From positions 21,138,828 through 21,198,827 of the forward strand of contig NC_087076.1 in NCBI RefSeq assembly GCF_026151205.1: 60,000 nt of DNA, read 5' to 3'. The notes beneath the pieces are model-generated. The model searched no databases and was not told the DNA's origin. It saw nothing but the letters and a program-made list of their open reading frames with translations. Shown one piece after another: positions 4,898 through 56,151 of the stretch. How positions within the stretch are numbered: the stretch's first letter is position 1; each line of letters starts with the position of its first letter. The position numbers were made by a program, and so were the translations under genes. Source of the DNA: Bolinopsis microptera. Taxonomy: Eukaryota > Ctenophora > Tentaculata > Lobata > Bolinopsidae.

Positions 4898-5893
4898 TCA
4901 TTGAACAGATTCCTTGCTGGTCCTGGGATATGTAACTCGTTCTAATAACGGGACTCTAACTCGTTTTACAGCTATTCTATTCCAATTGAAGAAGTGGTAG
5001 AATTTATCCCTATAACTAGGCATTCTGAACAGATACAAGCAGGGGTTCAGTGCAGCGTTTACCAGAACAGGTACATAAAGTAGCAGTAAATGTCCATAGA
5101 ATGATATAACATCCCCACTTATTATTAGTTGGGCAGATTCCAGCCGGTAGGAGAGGAGTATCAACATCTGGTAAGCAAAGACAGGGGTGTTGGACACCAT
5201 GAAGAGTGCAGTGAAGAGGGTGATTGTGATGGACACATTCCTGAATCTCTTCTCGTGGTTGTTTATCAGAGTGAGAGCTGTTGATTTCCTCATCAGAGAC
5301 AAGGTGCCCGCTAGAAAGCTGATGAAAATGATGAGCGAGGGAAGGAACAGTTCTACTTGGAGAGCGATGAGGAAGAAGAGTTTAGTCCACTCTGGGGTGC
5401 GTTCTGTAAAGTTAAAGGAGCAGAATGGTAGCTGCTCTTGGAAAGTCCCTTTCATCCAGCCCACACCGAAACCTACCCCATCAACTGTCAACAACAGAAT
5501 ACCATATCCTGCCACCAACGCAATGACCATGTTTCCGCGGACATACCTTGCTTTATAAGGCAGGATGATGGCCATGGTTCTGGATACACTCAATACAGTT
5601 ACCATGAACATGGAGATACGAACTGTCAGATTAGCGAGTATTGCCCAGAATGCACACACGTGCTCGTCTTTAAAGAGAGTTTCGTTGCGATCGTTGAACA
5701 GGGAGACGATGACAGGAATAGCGGTGATGGAAGTGCAAATGTCGACAGACACGATACTCACGTATAGTTTATCTGGGATTGATTTGTGTCTTCTGTACCA
5801 AAAGTAGAGAAATGACGATATGTTGCCAAATAGACCGGTTAAGGAGATGATTATCATTGCACAGCCTATAATTCGGTCTGAAGTTGAATCCAT
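4898..5893 (-). CDS. Class A (rhodopsin-like) G-protein-coupled receptor, single exon
   Basis: This 331-residue intronless receptor has seven hydrophobic segments at roughly residues 9-33, 43-66, 80-110, 120-146, 172-201, 218-245 and 262-291. Class A marks are GN in TM1, an Asp in TM2 (SVDICTS), a Cys before TM3 (EHVCAFW) paired with a Cys in loop 2 (LPFCSF), SRT in place of DRY at the end of TM3, and NPCLY for NPxxY in TM7. A basic C-tail follows. The start ATG (5891-5893 on the plus strand) has A at -3 and precedes TM1 by only about 8 residues, so there is almost no extracellular N-terminus. Ligand unknown. It shares SRT and the TM6 pattern with the receptor at 55162, so both likely belong to one lineage-specific expansion. 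Confidence 0.9.
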   Translation of the reverse strand: MDSTSDRIIGCAMIIISLTGLFGNISSFLYFWYRRHKSIPDKLYVSIVSVDICTSITAIPVIVSLFNDRNETLFKDEHVCAFWAILANLTVRISMFMVTVLSVSRTMAIILPYKARYVRGNMVIALVAGYGILLLTVDGVGFGVGWMKGTFQEQLPFCSFNFTERTPEWTKLFFLIALQVELFLPSLIIFISFLAGTLSLMRKSTALTLINNHEKRFRNVSITITLFTALFMVSNTPVFAYQMLILLSYRLESAQLIISGDVISFYGHLLLLYVPVLVNAALNPCLYLFRMPSYRDKFYHFFNWNRIAVKRVRVPLLERVTYPRTSKESVQ

Positions 5894-30180: not shown

Positions 30181-30424
30181 ATTGGCATATTCGATCAATA
30201 ATATTGAGATTTTCTGCTTCACCAATATAACCATATTAAAATAATATAATACTTTACTTAAACATTTAAAGAATTCCTGCATGAGTCTGCAAGAAGGATC
30301 GCTTTTTCTTCATCTTATAACTTAATTACATACCTTTCCAGCCATCAAGGCTGCAAGCCATACGATTTTCAGGTTCAGAGCAAGAAGACCTATCCCAAAA
30401 AGTGTTTGATAATGCATTTTGTAT
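30181..30424. repeat. Paralogous block (uninterrupted copy)
   Basis: TTCGATCAATAATATTGAGA through AATGCATTTTGTAT matches 33690-34484. That copy contains a 509-bp insertion, and here the LINE is joined at the block's right end. GCAAGAAG at 30289 marks the unfilled site of that insertion. Confidence 0.85.
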
Positions 30425-32297
30425 TTACCTCCCATCAAAGTGACTGTGAAATGGAAAACGAAATGCGTGACTATATTAATAAAGCGATGTTGTTACAAAT
30501 GGAGATTGGAGATAAGTGGACTCTAAGACCTATAACAGTTGGCAACAACATTATAGGTCTTTCCAAGTCTGCTAAATTTCTAGGAGTGACCTTGGACAGC
30601 AAACTCAACTTCAATGAACATATCATCAACACCACCAAAAAAGCCACGGCATCCCTCATGCAATGTCGAAGAGCTATCGGCCCCACATGGGGTATGAGCC
30701 CCAAAACATGCAAATGGATGTACACGGCTGTCATCCGTCCAATCCTATCCTACTGCTGTAGTATATGGATCAGGGCCACTCAAACGGACTATAACGCGAA
30801 GAAACTCAAACGTGTTCAGGCATTGGCACTCAGAATGATGTCTGGTGCCATGCCAAGCACACCTTTTATCGCATTGAATCACCTCACCGACACTTCTGAC
30901 ATCATACTGTTCCTGCAAGGCGAAGCAGCAAAGGGTGCGGCCAGGCTACAAGCTTATGGCAGCCTCACTCTTGAAACTATCGCCTTCAGGAAGGGAACTA
31001 TCAAAAATCATACCACTATCAACAAACAATTCATGGCAGATCTCATTATTCCACCTAGAGCAACGAGAGACCTAACAACACCAACCATGATGCTGGGACG
31101 GCACTTCACCGTCACAACTCCTGGAGCAGATAACACTGAATATAGAAATTCACTTCAAAACACCATTGACAACATTACCAGTGAAACGATCACCTGCTAC
31201 ACTGACGGGTCACTCACAGACTCAGGATGCGGGGCTGGCTATATCATCACAACTGACAACAATAACACCACCCTTGAAGAAAGATCATTCAAGCTCCCTG
31301 ATTATTGCACTGTTTACCAAACAGAGCTCACCGCCATCATTGAAGCTTGCAAATATCTCTCTACCTATACCAACACACATATCATCATATGGTCTGACAG
31401 TCTCTCATCTATACAAGCTATCTCTGCGCTTTCAACGCGGAGTAGAACTACAAGAGACTGTTACGACTCTCTTAATGCACTCGGATCCAACAACACTCTA
31501 GAGATACGATGGATTGCAGCACACATCGGATTGTGGGGGAACGAAAAAGCAGATGAGCTGGCCAAGCTTGGTACAACCAGTGAATCCACTTTGAAGTGTC
31601 CAATTCCACAATCCTACATCAAGCGTCAAATCGACAACAAAGTCAACAGACTGAATCAGGAAACTTGGTTAACTGACGGTCCCAGACACACCAAACTGAC
31701 ACTCGGCCACAAGCATGCCAAAATCATCAAAAACCTCAACACTACACTCAGCAAAAACAGACAAGATTACAGAACTGCAGTTCACCTCATCACGGGTCAC
31801 TGCGGCTTAAACAAACACCTTCACACCATTTGCAAATCAAACACCAGTGCTTGTCCTATGTGCGGCGACGGAGAGGAAACTGTCTCACACTTCCTTGGAC
31901 AGTGTCCAGCTATTGCCCAAATTAGAGGTCAATATTTCCAGGACTACTACCTCTCTGTCAATGACATATTCGACAACCAACACATCACCACAATTGTCAA
32001 TTTCGCAAACCGCACCAAACGCTTAATTGTGCCGGAAGAGCTGGATCAGACCGGGGTGACTTAAAGTATTATTTCATATGCTGTCTCGTCTCGTTTTACT
32101 TTTCCAAACCCAGCTGGCATTTAAGCGTATCATTTTGACTCATATATCATCTTACACCATCCTCCACCAATCACTCTGATTTCACCGGCAACCTTCCCCA
32201 AGGTTGCCACACCCCAGAGGTAGGCAGAGCATCTCAATGCTATCCTCTCGTGGGCTATCTTGGCCCAGCCTCTCTTAAAAAAAAAAAAAAAAAAAAA
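30425..32297 (+). mobile_element. 5'-truncated I/Jockey-like LINE with poly-A tail
   Basis: The open frame ends at 32064 (about 550 codons if read from the ATG at 30406, whose first few codons lie in the flank). It encodes the RT thumb and beyond (SAKFLGVTLDSKLNFNEHI, RPILSYCCSIW), then RNase H (about residues 263-390) with the acidic set D267 (YTDGS), E307 (TELTA), D331 (WSDS) and D383 (NEKADELAK). A CCHC knuckle CPMCGDGEETVSHFLGQC follows at 483-500. A roughly 210-bp 3' UTR and about 19 A residues (32278-32296) follow. The palm with YADD is missing, so it is a dead-on-arrival copy. The long intact frame implies recent insertion. RNase H in this position points to an I-group LINE. Confidence 0.9.
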
Positions 32298-41128: not shown

Positions 41129-41380
41129 TTGACTGAAGAAGAAATTTTACAATTCGAACTTTTAAGATTTTGGGCCGATAGGCAAATAACTTTCCCAATA
41201 CTCTCAAACATAGTAAGAATAGTGCATTGTATACCTGCCAGTAGTGCGGAAATTGAAAGAACCTGGTCGGCTGCAGGTTTAATTCTTTCTAGTCAGCGAT
41301 CTAGGATGAATGTTAAGAATTTCAAATATACACTGTTTTGTTCTAAAAACTATGATTTTGTTTCCAACAAAAAAGATTGA
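41129..41380 (+). pseudogene. hAT transposase C-terminal dimerisation domain
   Basis: The 83-codon frame reads ILQFELLRFWADRQITFPIL, IVRIVHCIPASSAEIERTWS and AAGLILSSQRSRM. This is the hAT dimerisation region (L-FW------FP-L---A----IPASSA--ER-FSAAG-----RSRL). The Trp in place of Phe in ERTWS is a tolerated variant. The DDE catalytic part is absent, so the element cannot move itself. It lies inside the hAT boundaries in the same orientation. Confidence 0.85.
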
Positions 41381-43340: not shown

Positions 43341-43564
43341 TTAGTTGGCCTTGATTTCACGGCTCACGCCGGCGTACGCCACCGCCGCCGGTGTAATTTT
43401 AGTGAAACGCCGCCGCCGATCCATTTAGCCACAGCGGACAAGCCTGGAGCCAAGTAATCTGAGCAAAGTAACCTAAACCACTTTATTGGCTAGTGCCCGA
43501 AGTGGTCTTACCAACGAGGAGGATACTTTGACTTATTCCTAATTCCTTTACTGGGCAAGTAAGC

Positions 43565-43800
43565 AGTGAGCTCACTAATGGTATTGGGACAGCTGCAATG
43601 ACAAGGTTTACTTGTCTTTGTGAGTAGTGAGTTACTAGTTCACTAATGGTATTGGGACAGCTGCAATGACAAGGTTTACTTGTCTTTGTGAGTAGTGAGC
43701 TACTAGTTCACTAATGGTATTGGGACAGCTGCAATAACAAGGTTTACTTGTCTTTGTGAGTAGTGAGCTATACCAGTTCACTAATGATATTTTGACAGCT
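43565..43800. repeat. 68-bp tandem repeat
   Basis: About three and a half copies of a unit containing TAATGGTATTGGGACAGCTG and AAGGTTTACTTGTCTTTGTG. Unit ends vary (GTTACTAGTT, GCTACTAGTT, GCTATACCAGTT). Confidence 0.92.
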
Positions 43801-45000: not shown

Positions 45001-45458
45001 CTGGAACGAAGAATCATCTGGTAATCGTCTAGCTGGTATGGGGTCTAATGCACCATAATATGATGAAACGTTTTCAACGTTTATACCAAACTTATGATCA
45101 ATGATTTTGTAACAAATATCAAATTTTCTCCATTTTAAAATACCAAGAATACCATATCAATATCATTCGGCTATTATATTATATTATGTTACTGTTGTGG
45201 TTACAAAGCATTTGATAACTTATCGCAAAACTCTTCGCGTTCAATAACCAGGTGGCTACAAACTTATAGAGCTACTGCAATAATAATGGACGAATAGCAT
45301 TGTTAGCTTATCACAATGCTGGCAAGCATGACCGTGCCTCTTATATTCACAATACTATTTAACCCCTTTACTATTTGTAGCGCGATGCACTACTGGGTCG
45401 CGCGCTCATCAAATAATGCTTCTCGCAACCACGGTAGATCGGCGAGATGCACCACTGT

Positions 45459-46911
45459 TAGGCAGTGCGCCATCGACAGTAAGACGCGCGCGCTGACCAT
45501 TGAATGATTTTTTAGCTCTTATTTCGGCCAGCACATTATTTTGGAAACAATCGAAAAGTTATAATACTTCCCAAATAACAATTTTGTTGAAATTTGGTCA
45601 GCTTACGTAAACGCTTATGTTCTACTGAACCTAATTTAGTTTGAGCAATTTCGATGGTCAGAATTTGAGTTATCAACGAATTTATACCTGTTTTGTCATT
45701 TTTAGACCTCTTAATCAAGGCCAATCTCTCCCAACTAAATTAGGTTCGGTAGTTAAGTATGATTGGAAGGTTCTGACAAATTTTCAGCATGATTCATGTT
45801 CAGGAACCGAAGATATGACAGAATAATATGACAAAAATCAACGAATTTCGTCAAATTACGCGACTTTTACACCTAATTTTGCTCCAAAAGCCGCGTACCA
45901 TCAAATATGGCACCTAGGCGAAGCTCACTAATCATTCCAAAAAAGTATAACAAATTTGGTACTGTGAAAATTCTCACAGTCTCTAGTAGTAGAAGCTCTT
46001 ACGGGCAAAAAGACGTGTTTTCTGCTACGAGTTTAGAGACCTAACCGCTAATCAAGCACAATAGTATGATGTCTAAGGATCGATAATATGTTAAGAAGTA
46101 TAAATTTGGCCTTATTAGTCACGTGCTATACCAATGCGCGTTTTAAACTTTGACAGTCTATTACTCTAAGGCAAATAAAGTAATTATATTCATATTTTGT
46201 CAGCAATAAGATCACATTATTTTCTATTTGGTGTGAAAATATGAGCTAGAACGGACATAATCTCGCTGAGTTATAGCTGTTTGAAGTTTATGATGAACGC
46301 GCGGGTGCCAATTGATAACAACTAAATGCTTTTGCGCGTAGTGCGCGTCGAAAATTTGGCAAAAACGCTTGCGGAGTGACAATATTCAAACTTCGATAAA
46401 GTATATGAAGTGGGTACTTCTCGGGAAGGAAAAATTTAGATAAACACGATGTGACTATTTTTGGGTTGATTTAATACAACTGCAAAAACTTATTCAAACT
46501 TCAAGCAAAAAAGTCAAAATTTTTACCACTGTTTTTGATTTTTACCTCAGAACAAATAGAGGGATTTGTTTTATTTTTATACCATCTTGTGCGGCTGTCT
46601 TTTAGCTATCTTCATGCAAGTTTTTTCGACATGCCAACAAAATTAACTTGCTCAAAATATCAAAAAACATGGTTTTTTGGCCTATTTTTGGCCCCAAAAT
46701 CGGTTTTTTGCGATTTTACCCCAGAACAATCAGTCCAATCATCTTAAAACTACTTTTAATCGATTCTACGGTCAAAAATACGTCTAGTAAGGTGTATCTG
46801 GGGTCCCTAACGTTTCATGCAGACAATGCCCGTAAGAGCTTCTACTATAGAAAACAATGGTACAAAAATTTTGAAAATCCGAGCAAGTTGATTTTTACCG
46901 TGCACCCCCTA
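45459..46911 (-). mobile_element. TAGG-family element, copy 4, with internal insertion
   Basis: Ends TAGGCAGTGCGCCAT and (other strand) TAGGGGGTGCACGGT; 7-bp duplication CCACTGT at 45452-45458 and 46912-46918. The body is interrupted at CTCTAG by an 861-bp element. Confidence 0.85.
45987..46847. mobile_element. 861-bp DNA element with 21-bp perfect TIRs
   Basis: It starts TAGTAGAAGCTCTTACGGGC and ends with the exact complement. Flanks TAG (45984-45986 and 46848-46850) form a 3-bp duplication of the CTCTAGAAAAC sequence seen uninterrupted in other copies of the host repeat. The interior is AT-rich, with a GCGCG-containing patch at 46290-46350 and no recognisable transposase. Confidence 0.85.
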
Positions 46912-47381
46912 CCACTGTGCCTCACCGAGCTGCGAAGGATTGACATCGTGAATCAACTTTACTATTTACCCCCTTTACTATTTACCGCCTTGACTTTTAT
47001 ACCCCCTTTACTAGTATACCCCTTTATTGTTTTTCAAGCATTAAGACTCATCGAAAGTAGTTCAGCAGGTATATTTAAGTTCAAAACATTCTAATTTAAT
47101 TCTAAATATGACAGGAATAAGAAATAGTTATGTGAAGGTTTTTGAGAAATTTGCGCAAAATACGCGCCAGCATGTTATACGAAATTCGGTAAAAAAACCC
47201 AAAATCGCCATATTCAGGTGCTTTAAAAACCATGTTAAAATTGTGTTAGAGATCTGAAATTTTGCAGGGCGTCTAGACGTTGACCAAATCGACTGTAAAA
47301 AAAGTTTCAAGTTTCAGGAGCATCGGGAAATGGGTTTTCTAGAACCCCTGTTTTACAACAGATTGTCGGGACATATCACAG

Positions 47382-48480
47382 TGCTGGCAAGCACGAGCGG
47401 TGTCTTTATTTGGGGTATACTATGTACCCCCTTTACTATTGTACCCCCTTTACTATTATACCCCCTTTGGTACACATTTGAAGCCTCTTTCTAAGGGGTG
47501 CACGATAAAAATAAACTTGCTCGGATTTTCAAAATTTTTGTACCATTGTTTTCTAGAGACTGTGAGAATTTTCACAGTACCAAATTTGTCATACCTTTTT
47601 GGAATGATCAGTGAGTTTCGCCTAGGTGCCATAATTGATGGTGCGCGGCTTTAGCAAGCAAAATTAGGTGTAAAAGTCGCGTAATTTGGCGAAATTCGTT
47701 GATTTTTGTCGTATTATTCGGTCATATCTTCGGTTCCTGAACATAAATCATGCTGAAAATTTGTCAGAACCTTCTAATCATACTTAACTACCGAACCTAA
47801 TTTAGTTTGGAGAGATTGGCCTTGATTAAGAGGTCTAAAAATGATAAAATAGGTATAAATTCGTTGATAACTCAAATTCTGACCATCGAAATTGCTCAAA
47901 CTAATTTAGGTTCAGTAGAACATAAGTGTTTACGTAAGCTGACCAAATTTCAACAAAATTGTTATATGGGAAGTATTATAACTTTTTGATTGTTTCCGAA
48001 ATAATGTGCTGGCCGAAATACGAGCTAAAAAACCATTCAATGGTCAGCGCGCGCGTCTTACGGTCGATGGCGCACTGCCTACTCTTTCGTGCACGCGAAG
48101 CGTGCACTCCGGCCGGAGGCGGCAGGAGTTTTTCAGGCATTAAGACTCATCGGAAGTCGTTCAGCAGATTTATTTTTAGTTCAAAACATTCTAATTTGAT
48201 GTCAAAGATGACAGGAATAAAAAATAGTTATGTTGAGATTTTTAAGAAATTTGCATAAAATACTCGCCAGCACTGTTATACGAAATTCGGTAAAAAACCC
48301 AAAATCGCCATATTCAGGTGCCTTAAAAACCATGTTAAAATTGAGTTAGAGATCTGAAATTTTTCAGGGCGTCTAGACGTTGACCAAATCGACTGCAAAA
48401 AAAGTTTCAGGTTTCAGGAGCATCGGGAAGTGGGTTTTCTAAAACCCCTGTTTTACGACAGATTGTCGTGATATCTATCT
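47382..48480 (-). mobile_element. CAGTGCTGGC module (minus), split by TAGG-family copy 5
   Basis: ATCACAGTGCTGGCAAGCAC start, broken at CCTCTTTC (47491) and resumed at CTCTTTCGTGCACGCG (48082), through CGCGAAGCGTGCAC, the CGCCAGCACTGTTATACG motif and CCCTGTTTTACGACAG. Reconstructing it without the insertion gives the module of foldback copy A. Confidence 0.85.
47492..48081 (+). mobile_element. TAGG-family element, copy 5, full length
   Basis: TAAGGGGTGCACGAT at the left end and TAGGCAGTGCGCCAT at the right (other strand), with 7-bp duplication CTCTTTC (47485-47491 and 48082-48088). 590 bp. The undisrupted target is visible in foldback copies A and D (complement of GTGCACGAAAGAGGCTT). Confidence 0.9.
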
Positions 48481-48493
48481 ATATATATACACA

Positions 48494-48665
48494 TATAATT
48501 CGAACAATTGAAACAAATCAAATTGGCGGGCAAACGATCCGTTTCATGATATGTATAAAAACAATACCAATCATCAGTGCACTGATGATTGGTATTGTTT
48601 TTATACATATCATGAAACGGATCGTTTGCCCGCCAATTTGATTTGTTTCAATTGTTCGAATTATA
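48494..48665. repeat. Perfect 172-bp palindrome, no spacer
   Basis: Position 48494 pairs with 48665, and so on to the centre between 48579 and 48580 (GTG|CAC), with no mismatch in 86 bp. The arm includes CAATTGGCGGGCAAACG-like sequence (TTGGCGGGCAAACGATCC) and AACAATACCAATCATC. It lies between two other elements and matches nothing else in the window. Confidence 0.95.
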
Positions 48666-48741
48666 ATGCTCCTGCTTAACTGCAGTCGAGCACTCTCTTT
48701 GGGAAACCAAACAACAACTATTTATTATTTATATACACATA

Positions 48742-50645
48742 TTTTACCAAAACCCATAATCATGGGTAGAGTGGACCGCTGCCAGTGTCTCTCTTTCCCA
48801 AACAAAAGGAAATGATATTAATTTGATTGACCGTTCTCAAATGCAAAATGATACCGAGAATGAAATCGGTCGCTCGCTTTTCCCCCACAGATGCCTTTGG
48901 GTAGTTCTTCTTAATCTATTACAATTGTAAATGAATGGGAAAAGCGAGGGACCGATATCATTCTCGGTATCATTTTGCATTTGAGAACGGTCAATCAAAT
49001 TAATATCATTTCCTTTTGTTTGGGAAAGAGAGACACTGGCAGCGGTCCACTCTACCCATGATTATGGGTTTTGGTAAAATATCATCTCTTTTTGATTATA
49101 ATGTCAGGGTACTTTATAACGTCGAAATATAAACTGATATCTTCATTAATATTAATAAGGAGGAAGTTTCCACGATTTAGAAATTTTTCCTTTAAAAACA
49201 TTTCCTTGTGTTTAGGTAAGCATATCGGTCGATCACTGACTGAATATGCCACTTTATACTCATTCAAGTTGGCATTAAATTCATATATAATGACATTAAA
49301 AAGCAGAATTTGTTGGAAATCACGAATGAGCAAAATTCTCACTTTTCGCACGTGCAAACTTTGAGCGGACGTTGCGTGCGCATCCAATATTGAATCGCCG
49401 TAAATTTTTGCGTGTAATTGTTTTATATATAGCTTGATAAGCATGCAAAGTTTCAAAGTATTTCAAGAAGAACTGTAATCACAACGGCACTCTAAAGTTG
49501 ACAGAAAATGACGAAAACAGCAATTTTCAGTGATTTTAGCAATTTTCTATCAATTTGGGCGTGTCCCCACGTGTGCAACTTTTCGATTTTCAACTTTAAA
49601 ACTAGCCTAATGCACAATTTATACCTATAGGAAGCAGAACTGAGCTCCACAACCCAAGGCATGGCCCAACACCAGAGAATACTAAATCGCAAAATTGACG
49701 TTTTTATAAAATAATTCTTCAAAAAAGCACAAACCTCAATGACGAATATCTTTATGAAGGAGCAAGCTAGAAAAACTTTCCGGTAGATTTTCAGAATGCT
49801 TGAACAATTATCTAAGATAAAAAATTCCTCAGATTTTGAATTCAATTACTTTTTAATGGTGTAAAATCATTTTTAAAAGTTATTACTTTGTCAAAAATCA
49901 AGTTTTAAAAACGGTTAACTTGATGACGTCATCAAGGGGTGTTCATGACGTCAAATAATTTGTTTATACAATGTAAACTAAAGTGTAAACAATTATTTTC
50001 AAGACCTGTGGTCGGAAATTGCTGTATCTTTTATACTTTTGAATCTATGGACAATTAAAAACAGGCTACATTTGACTGGCAAAGCGTCTATCCCTGAATA
50101 TATGTATATATATATGTATGTATCACGACAATCTATCGTAAAACAGGGGTTCTAGAAAACCCATTTCCCGATTATCCTGAGACCTGAAACTTTTTTTGCA
50201 GTCGATTTGGTCAACGTCTAGACGCTCTGAAAAATTTCAGATCTCTAACTCGATTTTAACATGGTTATTAAGGCTCCTGAATATGGCGATTTTGGGTTTT
50301 TTACCGAATTTCGTATAACAGTGCTGGCGAGTATTTTATGCAAATTTCTTAAAAATCTCAACATAACTATTTATTATTCCTGTCATCTTTGACATCAAAT
50401 TAGAATGTTTTGAACTAAAATTAAATCTGCTGAACGACTTCCGATGAGTCTTAATGCCTGAAAAACTCCTGCCGGAGGCGGCGGCCTTCGGCCGCCTCCT
50501 CCGGCTGGAGTGCACGCTTCGCGTGCACGAAAGAGGCTTGTAACGTGTACCAAAGGGGGTATAATAGTAAAGGGGGTATAATAGTAAAGGGGTTACATAG
50601 TATACCCACAATAAATGCACCGGTCGTGCTTGCCAGCACTGTGAT
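48742..50645 (+). mobile_element. Long foldback element, copy D
   Basis: Arms about 48746-48884 and 48937-49075, with the loop shortened. Both modules are present, ending GCTTGCCAGCACTGTGAT. Includes the GC hairpin GGCGGCCTTCGGCCGCC and two GGGGGTATAATAGTAAA units. A 117-codon open frame (minus, 49492-49845) equals that of copy B with few changes. Confidence 0.85.
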
Positions 50646-50650
50646 ATATA

Positions 50651-52037
50651 TATTCAGGGATAGACGCTTTGCCAGTCAATTGTAGCCTGTATTTAAGTGT
50701 CCATAGATTCAAAAGTATAAAAGATACAGCCATTTCCGACCACAGGTCTTGCAAATAATTGTTTATACTTTAGTTTACATTGTGTAAAAAAAATATTTGA
50801 CGTCTTAAACACCCCTTGATGACGTCATCAAGTTAACCGTTTTTAAAACTTGATTTTTGACAAAGTAATAACTTTTAAAATTAATTTTAAACCATTAAGG
50901 AGTAATTTTATTCAAAATCTGAGGAAATTTTCACCTTAGATAATTGTTCAAGCATTCTGAAAATCTACCGGAAAGTTTTTCTAGCTTGCTCCTTCATAAA
51001 GATATTCGTCATTGAAGTTTGTGCTTTTTTGAAGAATTATTTTATAAAAACGTCAATTTTGCGATTTAGTATTCTCTGGTGTTGGGCCATGCCTTGGGTT
51101 GTGGAGCTCAGTTCTGCTTCCTATAGGTATAAATTGTGCATTAGGCTAGTTTTAAAGTTGAAAATCGAAAAGTTGCACACGTGGGGACACGCCCAAATTG
51201 ATAGAAAATCGCTAAAATCACTGAAAAATGCTGTTTTCGTCATTTTCTGTCAACTTTAGAGTGCCGTTGTGAGTACAGTTCTTCTTGAAATACTTTGAAA
51301 CTTTGCATGCTTATCAAGCTATATATAAAACAGTTACATGCAAAAATTTACGGCAATTCAATATTGGATGCGCACGCAACGTCCGCTCAAAGTTTGCACG
51401 TGCGAAAGGTGAGAATTTTGCTTATTCGTGATTTCCAACAAATTCTGCTTTGCCACGACAGTTTAATGTCATTATATATGAATTTAATGCCTACTTGAAT
51501 GAGTATTAAGTGGCATATTCAATCAGTGATCGACCGATATGCTTCCCTAAACACAAGGAAATGTTTTTAAAGGAAAAATTTCGAAATTGTTGAAACTTCC
51601 TCCTTATTAATGAAGATATCAGTTTATATTTCGACTTTATAAAGTACCCTGACATTATAATCAAAAAGAGATGATATTTTACCAAAACCCATAATCATGG
51701 GTAGAGTGGACCGCTGTCAGTGTCTCTCTTTCCCAAACAAAAGGAAATGATATTAATTTGATTGACCGTTCTCAAATGCAAAATGATACCGAGAATGAAA
51801 TCGGTCGCTCGCTTTTCCCATTCATTTACAATTGTAATAGATTAAGAAGAACTACCCAAAGGCAGCTGTAATCGGCAATGAAGATTCAATAAAATGGGAA
51901 AAGCGAGCGACCGATTTCATTCTCGGTATCATTTTGCATTTGAGAACGGTCAATCAAATTAATATCATTTCCTTTTGTTTGGGAAAGAGAGACACTGACA
52001 GCGGTCCACTCTACCCATGATTATGGGTTTTGGTAAA
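50651..52037 (-). mobile_element. Long foldback element, copy E (terminal module absent)
   Basis: Minus-strand copy starting at the AT microsatellite boundary (TATTCAGGGATAGACGC) and ending with the arms (51681-51826 and about 51894-52034). It lies head-on to copy D, sharing the (TA)n junction. Confidence 0.85.
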
Positions 52038-52055
52038 ATACAGATATACATATAT

Positions 52056-53604
52056 ATTCAGGGATAGACGCTTTGCCAGTAAATTATAGCCTTTATTTAA
52101 GTGTTCATAGATTCAAAAGTATAAAAGATATAGCCATTTCCGACCACAGGTCGTGCGAGTAATTATTTACACTTTAGTTTACATTGTATAAAAAAATTAT
52201 TTGACGTCATAAACACCCCTTGATGACGTCATCAAGTTAACCGTTTTAAAAACTTGATTTTTGACAAAGTAATCACTTTTAAAATCGATTTTACACCATT
52301 AAGAATTAATTTTATTCAAGATTTGAGGACATATTGAAGTTAGATAATTGTTTAAGCATTCTGAAAATCTACCGGAAAGTTTTTCTACCTTGCTCCTTCA
52401 TAAAGATATTCGTCATTGAAGTTTGTGCTTTTTGAAGAATTATTTTATAAAAACGTCAATTTTGCGATTTAGTATTCTCTGGTGTTGGGCGATGCCTTGG
52501 GTTGTGGAGCTCAGTTCTGCTTCCTATAGGTATAAATTGTGCATTAGGCTAGTTTTAAAGTTGAAAATCGAAAAGTTGCACACGTGGGGACACGCCCAAA
52601 TTGATAGAAAATTGCTAAAATCACTGAAAATTGCTGTTTTCGTCATTTTCTGTCAACTATAGAGTGCCGTTGTGATTACAGTTCTTTTTGAAATACTTTG
52701 AAACTTTGCATGCTTATCAAACTATATATAAAACACCAACATGACAAAATTTACGGCGATTCAGTATTGGATGCGCACGCAACGACCGCTCAAAGTTTGC
52801 ACGTGCGAAAGGTGAGAATTTTGCTCATTCGTGATTTCCAACAAATTCTGCTTTGCCACGACAGTTTAATGTCATTATATATGAATTTAATGCCAACTTG
52901 AATGAGTATAAAGTGGCATATTCAGTCAGTGATCGACTGATATGCTTACCTAAACACAAGAAAATGTTTTTAAAGGAAAAATTTCGAAATCGTTGAAACT
53001 TCTTCCTTATTGAATTTGATGAAGATATCAGTTTATATTTTGTATTTCAACTATATAAAATTAAAGTACCCTGACATTATAATCAAAAATAGATGATATT
53101 TGACCAAAACCCATAATCATGGGTAGAGTGGACCGCTGCCAGTGTCTCTCTTTCCCAAACAAAAGGAAATGATATTAATTTGATTGACCGTTCTCAAATG
53201 CAAAATGATACCGAGAATGAAATCGGTCGCTCGCTTTTCCCATTCATTTACAATTGTAATACATTAAAAAGAACTACCCGAAGGCAGCTGTACTCGGCAA
53301 TAAAGTTTCAATAAACTTCAGCTAATTCAATAAGTAATAACTACCACCCTTACCCCGAAATACTAGGTATCGACCCGAACGCAACCCAAAGAGATTTTTA
53401 CAGCATCTGATTGATGTAATCAATCTAAACTTATTACAATTCGTAAGCCGTGAATGAATGGGAAAAGCGAGTGACCGATTTCATTCTCGGTATCATTTTG
53501 CATTTGAGAACGGTCAATCAAATTAATATCATTTCCTTTTGTTTGGGAAAGAGAGACACTGGCAGCGGTCCACCCTACCCATGATTATGGGTTTTGGTCA
53601 AATA
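52056..53604 (-). mobile_element. Long foldback element, copy F (terminal module absent)
   Basis: Tandem with copy E and truncated at the same TATTCAGGGATAGACGC boundary. Arms at 53103-53248 and 53453-53598 with a loop like that of copies A and B. Confidence 0.85.
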
Positions 53605-54275
53605 CTATTAATGCTTTTCATACAAAGTTATATACTTATTATCAGCTCAAATAAACCTCATGAGGTCGCAAAAACAAAAGAAAATATGTGGCTTATGACA
53701 AGGTTTAGTTATTCAAATCTCTAATCAGAGTGAGGACTCCATATTATTAAGATAGGTTTTATTTTTTCCCCACATTGCTGTTCCTTGGTGAGCTAAAGAA
53801 CATACTCTTCTTTAATAGTTTTTTTTTGTGTTTAAAACTTTGATTAAGACAATTTATAATTCCATATTTTCAAAACTTAATCTAATTTTATGGGCGGTGA
53901 CTACAATTACAACGATTAAACTATTAACAACACTACAAATCTATTACATTTATTGAGGCCGTTACCGTTAAGGAATGTATTTAATGTAGTTATTGAGGAG
54001 TCCTAACTCTCCTCACGTCCGTAAATGGAGTTTTCTTTGTATCATATTATATGTAATATTACTTTTATTACTTTTCAGCTTTAATAATCAGACTAATCTT
54101 CTTCTTGTAATGCACAGCATATTGTATAGCAGAGCCTCGTCCCTCGTAATTACCAACCTATTCGAATTTGTTATCACTTCGATCTGAACTCTTAACCTGA
54201 TTCAAGTTATCTAATTCACATTGATTAACAGAAATGTGACTGATCCAATACAGAAAGCACCGCACACCACAGGTA
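53605..54275. other. Upstream region of the second receptor, no gene seen
   Basis: AT-rich, without recognised exons. It originally lay directly 5' of the receptor start codon. Since the insertion at 54284 it is separated from it by 873 bp. Confidence 0.45.
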
Positions 54276-54283
54276 ACCCGATG

Positions 54284-55156
54284 CATCGATGGTAAATACG
54301 TCAAAAAATCGCCTGTAAATACGCCGTATTCAAAAATTCTAAGAAATACGTGAAATACGGCAAAATTTGGCGCTTAAATTCTTTGATGGTAAAATTTTTC
54401 AAAATACGCGCGTATCTCTATGGAAATACGTGATTACAGATTAGTGATATTTGCGCGTGCGTCGCTGGCTCAGTGGTATATAGCAATACTGACAGTCGTT
54501 TTGGAGACTTTACGGTGCTCGAATGAAAACGCTGCAGCGACTTGCTATTCTTATGCTGAACCAACCAATCAGTCAGTCTGCTGCAAAGCAGAGCTTCTAA
54601 GGGTATAAAGCAGTTATGCCTCCCTCGAGGAATAGACTTTCAACCGAGACCCAGTTCCAGTGCATTTTTATCTATTACAATATTCGCAGACTAAGATCAC
54701 AAGTCTCTCTTGCTTGAATTTTGAAACCGGTTACCGGATTAACACGGACTTCCCAGTGGCATAAATTTAAAAAGTGACTAGGAATCCAGCCTGGAAAGAA
54801 AAAACGGTTATAATAAATTTTTAAAACGGCTACAATAATTTTTTCGGCCGGAAGACGATTTCATTTCACCTTGCTAGTTATATTACAGAGGTATTTTTAG
54901 TTATTCATTAGTTATTCATAATTGCCAAAAGTATGGGAAAAAATGATCCTATCCAAGTCTCGAACTCGCTATCTGATGCTATGGAGCTAGCGTATTAACC
55001 AATTAGGCCACGATTCCATATACTGTAATGTAATATTTATATATATATATCTTCGCGCGTTACTGCAACTTAATTTGAAATACGTAATTTATCACCGGGA
55101 AATACGTATGCGTAGTATCTACGCGTAGTCTCCCCAAAACGCATTTACCATCCTTG
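54284..55156. mobile_element. hAT-like element inserted at the receptor start codon
   Basis: The exact 8-bp duplication ACCCGATG is at 54276-54283 and 55157-55164. The ends CATCGATGGTAAATACGT and, on the other strand, CAAGGATGGTAAATGCGT match at 15 of 18 positions. The interior is AT-rich with TAAATACG/AAATACGTG repeats at both sides and two tRNA-like patches. No transposase frame. The second duplication copy contains the receptor's ATG (55162-55164). Confidence 0.85.
54950..55017 (-). ncRNA. tRNA-like (SINE-derived or pseudo-tRNA) patch
   Basis: The minus strand reads GGAATCGTGGCCTAATTGG with an A box (TGGCCTAATTGG) and a B-box-like GAGTTCGAGACTTGG at the right spacing. The acceptor stem has no good 3' partner, so it is not a convincing tRNA gene. 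It lies inside the hAT-like element. Confidence 0.45.
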
Positions 55157-55161
55157 ACCCG

Positions 55162-56151
55162 ATGAACCCCAAAACTCTGGAACCATACTTCATCACCGGG
55201 GTACCTTGTGTAATACTGAGTATGATTACAATCACCCTCAACATCTTTGTTGTCAACTTCTACCGGAAAAACAAACTCTCCCTAGTCCCACTCCTTTATA
55301 TTATGATATCAGGGGCTGATATTCTGACTGCTGTTGGGGTCATACACCAGTCCATAGCAATCTCACTCTTCACAAGAGATCTAATCAGCGAGGCAACTCT
55401 GGACCATAACACAGTAGTATGCTTCACTCTCACCCAGATAAGCTACAGATCGTCCGTATTCTACAACTTAGTACTCGCTGTTTCCAGGACAGTCATGATC
55501 CTCAGACCCTTCCACCAGATCAAGATAAAGATGGTGATACTGGTCTATGTTCTGTATGTTGTGCCTTGGATTGTCATTGCTGGACTTGATATATATCAGG
55601 TTTATATCGTGGAAAAATGGTTCACTAAGGGTTTCTATGTTAAGTACGCTGTTATGGGCTCCGGTCTGGCAACTATGGTTGCAGGTGGATTTCCAAATGG
55701 TCAAACAAAATGGTTCGGCACAGTGGTGACGCTCCTGGTGATTGCTTTCCTGATACCAGTCGTTATTATCATTATTACGTACATTCTGCAGGTCATATCT
55801 CTCCACAGATCAAGTCAGTTCCCAGCTAGCTCCAATCAACGTCACGTGACCATTACAGTTATCCTCATGTCATCCCTATTTGTCATCTGTAACTCTGCGT
55901 TCTACGGATATCTGTTTTCAATGCTGTTAGGACTAAAATACCGTGATCATTTTACTCTTTTTATAGCAGTGTTTGGGACATTGCTGCCGATTCTAGGTTC
56001 AGCCCTGAATCCTGTTATCATCATCTCTAGAAGTGGGGGATTGAGAGAAAGGTTTCTGGCCCCAGTGAGGAGGAGAGTTCCGTTAAGTTTGAGGGGGCAA
56101 ATTTCAAACAGAGTCAGTGCTGCGACAGAACAAAGTGGAGGGACTGTATAA
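55162..56151 (+). CDS. Class A (rhodopsin-like) G-protein-coupled receptor, single exon
   Basis: This 329-residue intronless receptor has hydrophobic segments at roughly residues 9-32, 43-66, 84-112, 124-148, 185-211, 228-252 and 263-288. Marks are TLN in TM1, SGADI in TM2, SRT for DRY at the end of TM3, Trp in TM4 (VVPWIV), Pro in TM5 (FLIPVV), and NPVII for NPxxY in TM7, so the Tyr is lost. The start codon lies inside the 8-bp target duplication of the hAT-like element just upstream, so promoter and leader are displaced or replaced. The context before ATG (ACCCG) is weak. A polyadenylation signal AATAAA is at 56188. It is a paralogue-level relative of the receptor at 4898. Confidence 0.88.
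   Translation: MNPKTLEPYFITGVPCVILSMITITLNIFVVNFYRKNKLSLVPLLYIMISGADILTAVGVIHQSIAISLFTRDLISEATLDHNTVVCFTLTQISYRSSVFYNLVLAVSRTVMILRPFHQIKIKMVILVYVLYVVPWIVIAGLDIYQVYIVEKWFTKGFYVKYAVMGSGLATMVAGGFPNGQTKWFGTVVTLLVIAFLIPVVIIIITYILQVISLHRSSQFPASSNQRHVTITVILMSSLFVICNSAFYGYLFSMLLGLKYRDHFTLFIAVFGTLLPILGSALNPVIIISRSGGLRERFLAPVRRRVPLSLRGQISNRVSAATEQSGGTV

Follow-up and report, generated by a model that had tools for sequence, protein, structure and literature searches.

Introduction

Non-autonomous elements of the hAT superfamily are deletion derivatives of the Ac/Ds type. DNA transposons at the 5′ end of host genes have been described elsewhere. OsPT1 in rice carries a transposon insertion in its 5′ UTR (PMC12902297), and in the ctenophore Mnemiopsis leidyi more than 90% of distal-loop promoters contain a DNA transposon insertion (PMC12221973). 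The locus analysed here lies in a 60-kb stretch of DNA (the window, to which all positions given without a contig refer), in which an 873-bp element of hAT type has landed exactly on the ATG that opens a receptor frame. Among the papers listed in our literature searches, none concerned a hAT insertion duplicating a start codon, although one may be in print, and those listed on hAT elements in ctenophores and on ctenophore receptors yielded nothing on this locus. A first-pass annotation of the window had presented it as a candidate regulatory capture. We argue that it is probably a young hAT hop into a fading, eroded receptor duplicate that left the frame open, and not a regulatory capture.

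The element and its copies

The element occupies positions 54284-55156 (plus strand) between two copies of the target-site duplication ACCCGATG, copy 1 at 54276-54283 and copy 2 at 55157-55164 (both plus strand). Its terminal inverted repeats, at 54284-54303 (plus strand) and at 55137-55156 (minus strand, ending TTTACCATCCTTG), agree at 15 of 20 ungapped positions, and the element begins with CA and ends with TG. The 873-bp unit between matching 8-bp copies, and its matching ends, had been noticed in the first-pass annotation, whose coordinates proved exact and which had named other copies as the place to look for differently placed ends. A search of the genome (264,652,675 bases in 232 contigs) gave at least 44 matches, with 40 of 218 candidates scored, and other copies have breakpoints on the same bases as the window copy. 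Among the 31 places fetched for comparison, some of which are broken copies, 22 match the element over its whole length, bases 1 to 873, with 89-99% identity, and in 19 of these 22 a perfect 8-bp duplication flanks the same ends as in the window copy. The exceptions are L019 (7 of 8 bases), L018 (7 of 8, needing a one-base shift) and L027, which has no duplication; L037, a 75% relative that matches at 2-868 and has no duplication, was kept out of the 22. ATG is present in three of the 20 exact target duplications (window and 19 others). Another copy of the element, identical to the majority of the subfamily (L002/L009, C7:17215195-17216066), interrupts and splits another class A receptor frame, close to the third transmembrane stretch as judged by eye.

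A remnant of the C-terminal dimerisation region of a hAT transposase lies at about 54523-54714 (plus strand), with one in-frame stop in the window copy. The two pieces of the window remnant gave no match when searched alone against PF05699; the equivalent 71-residue stretch of L023 does match (E 1.3e-10). A PF05699 scan of the genome, with 150 of 365 candidates scored, placed 12 of the listed matches in element copies, none of them in the seven-copy subfamily of the window element. Translated in all six frames, the 873 bp contained no full transposase frame, and an autonomous parent with the same ends was not found in a 5′-end search in which 40 of 81 candidates were scored and one long candidate was fetched. 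The locus C6:2719394-2724587 was rejected as such a parent: the 4.3 kb between its element pieces contain LINE-like frames (1021 and 369 residues from stop to stop, assigned to LINEs by eye), and no transposase was seen. Because of the 8-bp duplications, the CA...TG ends and the transposase fragment in sister copies, we classify the element as a non-autonomous hAT, an identity that the first reading had proposed. Two observations elsewhere in the window concern mobile elements as well: positions 41141-41338 (C5:21179968-21180165) give a further match to the hAT dimerisation region, and a 552-codon frame at 30406-32064 resembles, by eye, the terminal part of a reverse transcriptase of LINE type together with an RNase H part.

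Inside the element, positions 54752-55070 form a repeat of about 320 bp that is also found elsewhere in the genome at 76-87% identity, at places that do not match the element ends. Strings resembling an A-box and a B-box were seen in the element by eye, against their usual consensus. A tRNA-like or SINE head was dropped as an interpretation, no tRNA being reported by ARAGORN or Rfam, and the sequence is kept as an unnamed repeat.

An empty site in a segmental duplicate and the age of the insertion

The region 38713-60000 of the window corresponds largely to an inverted segmental duplicate at C5:20.90-20.92 Mb, 285 kb away on the same contig, with 92-98% identity and gaps. At the receptor locus of this duplicate, L042, the matches to the left and right flanks of the element overlap by exactly 8 bases, and in the alignment L042 reads through one single ACCCGATG. 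An unfilled site, which the annotation had expected in other individuals or sister species, is present here in a paralogue of the same genome, which is neither an allele nor a sister species. Excision from L042 in place of insertion in the window was rejected: L042 contains one clean ACCCGATG, through which the sequences of L041 and L043 run uninterrupted as well. As for an allelic empty site, no match but L042/L054 (92 and 97%) exceeded 91% amino-acid identity among those listed, with 122 of 558 candidates scored.

A second difference between the duplicates is a stretch of 8.3 kb at 45312-53601, built of nested direct and inverted repeats and absent from L042; it lies some 0.67 kb ahead of the hAT insertion. 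No clear target duplication was seen at its ends, and in a more distant copy at C1:19.94 Mb the matches flanking it stand about 50 bp apart. Since these 8.3 kb are missing from the duplicate too, the window copy has taken two insertions near its 5′ end. Further upstream, window positions 43447-43800 match the duplicate repeatedly in 68-base steps, as if a tandem array were long there and short in the window.

Set against the majority sequence of its seven-copy subfamily, the 873-bp window element shows 4 substitutions and one 2-base indel, a divergence of 0.46% (95% interval 0.12-1.17%). Compared over five stretches, the flanks of the two duplicates show 203 differences in 7674 positions (2.65%, or 1.3% for each lineage); the individual stretches range from 1.8 to 5.1%. 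These values fit an insertion later than the duplication. The upper bound for the element nearly reaches the per-lineage value of the duplication (1.3%), and the argument for youth therefore rests mainly on the empty site.

The start codon, the N-terminus and the condition of the receptor

Copy 2 of the duplication provides the ATG at 55162 of a class A (rhodopsin-like) receptor frame of 329 codons (55162-56151, plus strand; PF00001 33 bits, cut-off 30.5). That this ATG opens an intact frame, and that the insertion spared it, was correctly seen in the first reading: all 329 codons are still open. The frame stayed open because the 8-bp target spanned the first in-frame ATG and the duplication copied that ATG together with the five bases preceding it. 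As the duplication spans -5 to +3, the context of the ATG, with C at -3, is the same before and after the insertion. Another class A receptor frame, 331 codons long (PF00001 48.7 bits), is found at 4898-5893 on the minus strand of the window.

It had also been claimed that the ancestral start used this same codon, which the paralogues contradict. L043 and L044 start more than 50 residues upstream of the duplicated ATG, their frame running on without a break, and in both the codon or its position is internal. In the alignment, L041, L043 and L044 have ATG-ACT-GAT-CCA where the window and L042 have GTG-ACT-GAT-CCA. The start codon once used by the near family, now GTG, lies at 54236-54238 (plus strand), 15 codons upstream of the ATG of copy 1 and in the same frame. 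Homologues with a longer N-terminus spliced from upstream had been named in advance as evidence against the first reading; longer N-termini do exist, though as continuous frames not visibly spliced from upstream. Read from the first methionine, the residues that precede the stretch shared by the receptor subfamily number 76 in L043 (with five N-glycosylation sequons), 58 in L044 (53 from its MTDP methionine, with two sequons), 37 in L053 and L064, 31 in L049, 30 in L051 and L055, 25 in L048 and L052, 19 in L047, 15 in L046 and 3 in the stop-cut L041; L045, the last of the 13 paralogue loci, has no methionine after the last stop, and L046 and L055 are alignable only from residues 24 and 18. With 4 such residues, the window receptor falls well short of most paralogues. 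Like starts are found in L049 (MTNQST) and L051 (MTDSTD), different ones in L047 (MANNST) and L048 (MSTTVP). In L041 a stop stands at codon 7 of the upstream N-terminus, so that L041 too would have to start at MNP. The N-termini of L041 and L043 also contain tandem 24-bp repeats encoding SGNYTDYY, each with an N-glycosylation sequon, five in L043 and three in L041.

In a tree of seven rows the window groups with L042 (100/99) and L041 with L043 (93/93), and L044 lies outside these four. This makes the absence of the upstream start, and of most of the N-terminus, a derived state that arose in the ancestor of the window copy and L042. Since L043 and L044 start upstream and the window and L042 share the GTG there, the duplicated ATG is a former internal methionine; when the element arrived it already stood first among the in-frame ATGs, and it may well have served as the start just before.

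All three nearest copies are damaged: L041 has the early stop described above, L042 has a 4-base deletion that breaks its frame and L043 has lost its 3′ end. Over 281 codons the ratio of changing to silent rates is 0.60 between the window and L042 and 0.30 between the window and L041. When substitutions were polarised with L041 (2 unpolarised ones being dropped), the window branch had 6 changing and 7 silent substitutions and the L042 branch 9 and 1. The window branch thus carries fewer changing substitutions than neutral expectation in what is a small test (P = 0.020), and the contrast between the two branches is not significant (P = 0.074). From the former value, constraint appears to have acted on the window copy during part of its history, and the copy may still be in use. 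The constraint concerns the branch as a whole, most of which should predate the insertion. With its upstream start and most of its N-terminus lost in the ancestor shared with L042, the recently duplicated receptor gene was already eroded when the element arrived.

The upstream region and possible transcript leaders

The DNA upstream of the insertion, at 53602-54275 (plus strand), is common to L042 and in parts to L041, L043 and L044. These old sequences, about 670 bp, were kept in place and now stand 873 bp further from the receptor frame, a displacement that the annotation had described correctly. The annotation went on to confine any present promoter to the element or to a distant site; this conclusion is not warranted, because the old upstream DNA is still there, 873 bp off, and because a leader could be cis- or trans-spliced. 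The window copy is not alone in having insertions in this area: L041 and L043 each have about 310 additional bp immediately before the start region.

The ATG of copy 1 reads into the element as a 4-codon frame, ATG-CAT-CGA-TGG-TAA (54281-54295, plus strand), which the first reading had already pointed out. The element adds 12 further ATGs, giving 13 ahead of that of the receptor; 7 of the 12 are in the frame of the receptor, each closed by stops. Scanning from the old start site would, one can presume, rarely reach the receptor ATG, and a way out would need a transcription start low in the element, cis-splicing or trans-splicing. For cis-splicing there is a candidate donor-like site, CAG|GTAA, at 54270-54276 (plus strand), just before the element. 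Its A at 54271 is specific to the window, a T being present in L041, L042, L043 and L044. As to trans-splicing, it is common in the ctenophore Hormiphora, where a leader is found on 56% of reads (PMC8527503). A 38-base stretch of the Hormiphora leader given in that report, allowed up to 3 mismatches, had no match in the genome. Trans-splicing could still operate here, since this was the one leader tried and leaders differ between ctenophores.

Discussion

The events at this locus are best ordered as follows. The common ancestor of the window copy and L042 lost its upstream start (ATG to GTG) and most of its N-terminus, leaving a former internal methionine as the first in-frame ATG. A non-autonomous hAT element then recently jumped into one of the two copies, its 8-bp target happening to span that ATG, and the target duplication copied the codon with its five preceding bases, so that the frame remained open. 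RNA made from the old upstream region would now meet the 13 ATGs before the one of the receptor. As the ATG of copy 1 and the 12 of the element precede it, the output of the receptor is probably reduced or abolished, unless splicing removes the leader ATGs or a new start site arose low in the element. If 15,000-20,000 genes are assumed, the chance that an insertion spans a start ATG is about 3-5 in 10,000 per insertion, or about 1% for 23 copies. A genome holds many transposons and the case was picked by the reader for being striking, so no special explanation is needed.

How far the receptor copy had decayed when the element arrived is the point on which the reading of a fading duplicate borders on that of an outright pseudogene, dead before the insertion and with its frame open only through youth. 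The two overlap, and the probabilities that we attach to the readings are not meant to add up to one. The loss of the upstream start before the insertion, the frameshift in the sister copy L042, the damage in L041 and L043 and the two insertions near the 5′ end would all suit a dead gene; set against them are the 6 changing and 7 silent substitutions of the window branch, which look constrained in a test that is small. We regard an outright pseudogene as a serious possibility, though one against which we would lean. Regulatory capture, with the element giving the receptor a promoter, is a different matter. The promoter of a parental hAT transposase is expected near the left end of the element, and the transposase remnant reads rightward, toward the receptor, whose frame is intact where that of L042 is broken; the Mnemiopsis promoters also speak in its favour. 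However, RNA begun at the left end would have as many as 12 ATGs ahead of that of the receptor, and the old upstream DNA is still present. Regulatory capture is not required by anything in the locus, and we consider it unlikely.

The element could also have become a new 5′ leader intron, with CAG|GTAA spliced to an AG near 55114 or 55127, which would take out the ATG of copy 1 and all 12 of the element. It speaks for this that the donor-like site occurs in none of L041, L042, L043 and L044 and that positions 55128-55162 are without an ATG. But the donor fits 7 of 9 positions of the usual consensus, CAGGTAA occurs a second time on the plus strand of the 60-kb window, and the pyrimidine tracts of the acceptors are weak (0.40 at 55114, 0.55 at 55127), so such an intron seems improbable. 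No better chance is given to a rescue, by which the element, together with the base change specific to the window, would have provided a start-less receptor with a new leader (through an intron or a promoter) that strips the upstream ATGs and gives the receptor, shortened at its N-terminus, a new control; the copy lacking the element would have died. A recent hop into an already fading duplicate is the reading that we prefer to these.

The locus offers a clean and datable case of a target-site duplication sparing a gene whose start codon was struck, and the unfilled site is preserved within the same genome. A second lesson is that no ATG should be called ancestral until the paralogues have been read, the duplicated ATG here being a fallback. 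Should the window copy prove to be expressed, it would allow a tractable natural test of the 5′ disruption that a young receptor duplicate can tolerate.

With systems of the Ac/Ds type the window element shares the 8-bp duplications, the short CA...TG terminal inverted repeats, a dimerisation-region remnant and some two dozen end-complete copies at 89-99% identity, and it differs from them in that an autonomous partner was not found and in the separate repeat of about 320 bp inside it. As in OsPT1, a DNA element stands between the promoter and the coding frame of an otherwise intact gene; the OsPT1 report describes changed expression (PMC12902297), whereas the mark of the present locus is that the insertion fell on the ATG itself. 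The Mnemiopsis cases, for their part, concern the promoters of looped genes (PMC12221973); there as in the window, a DNA transposon is found at the 5′ end of a gene, and the hosts are probably related.
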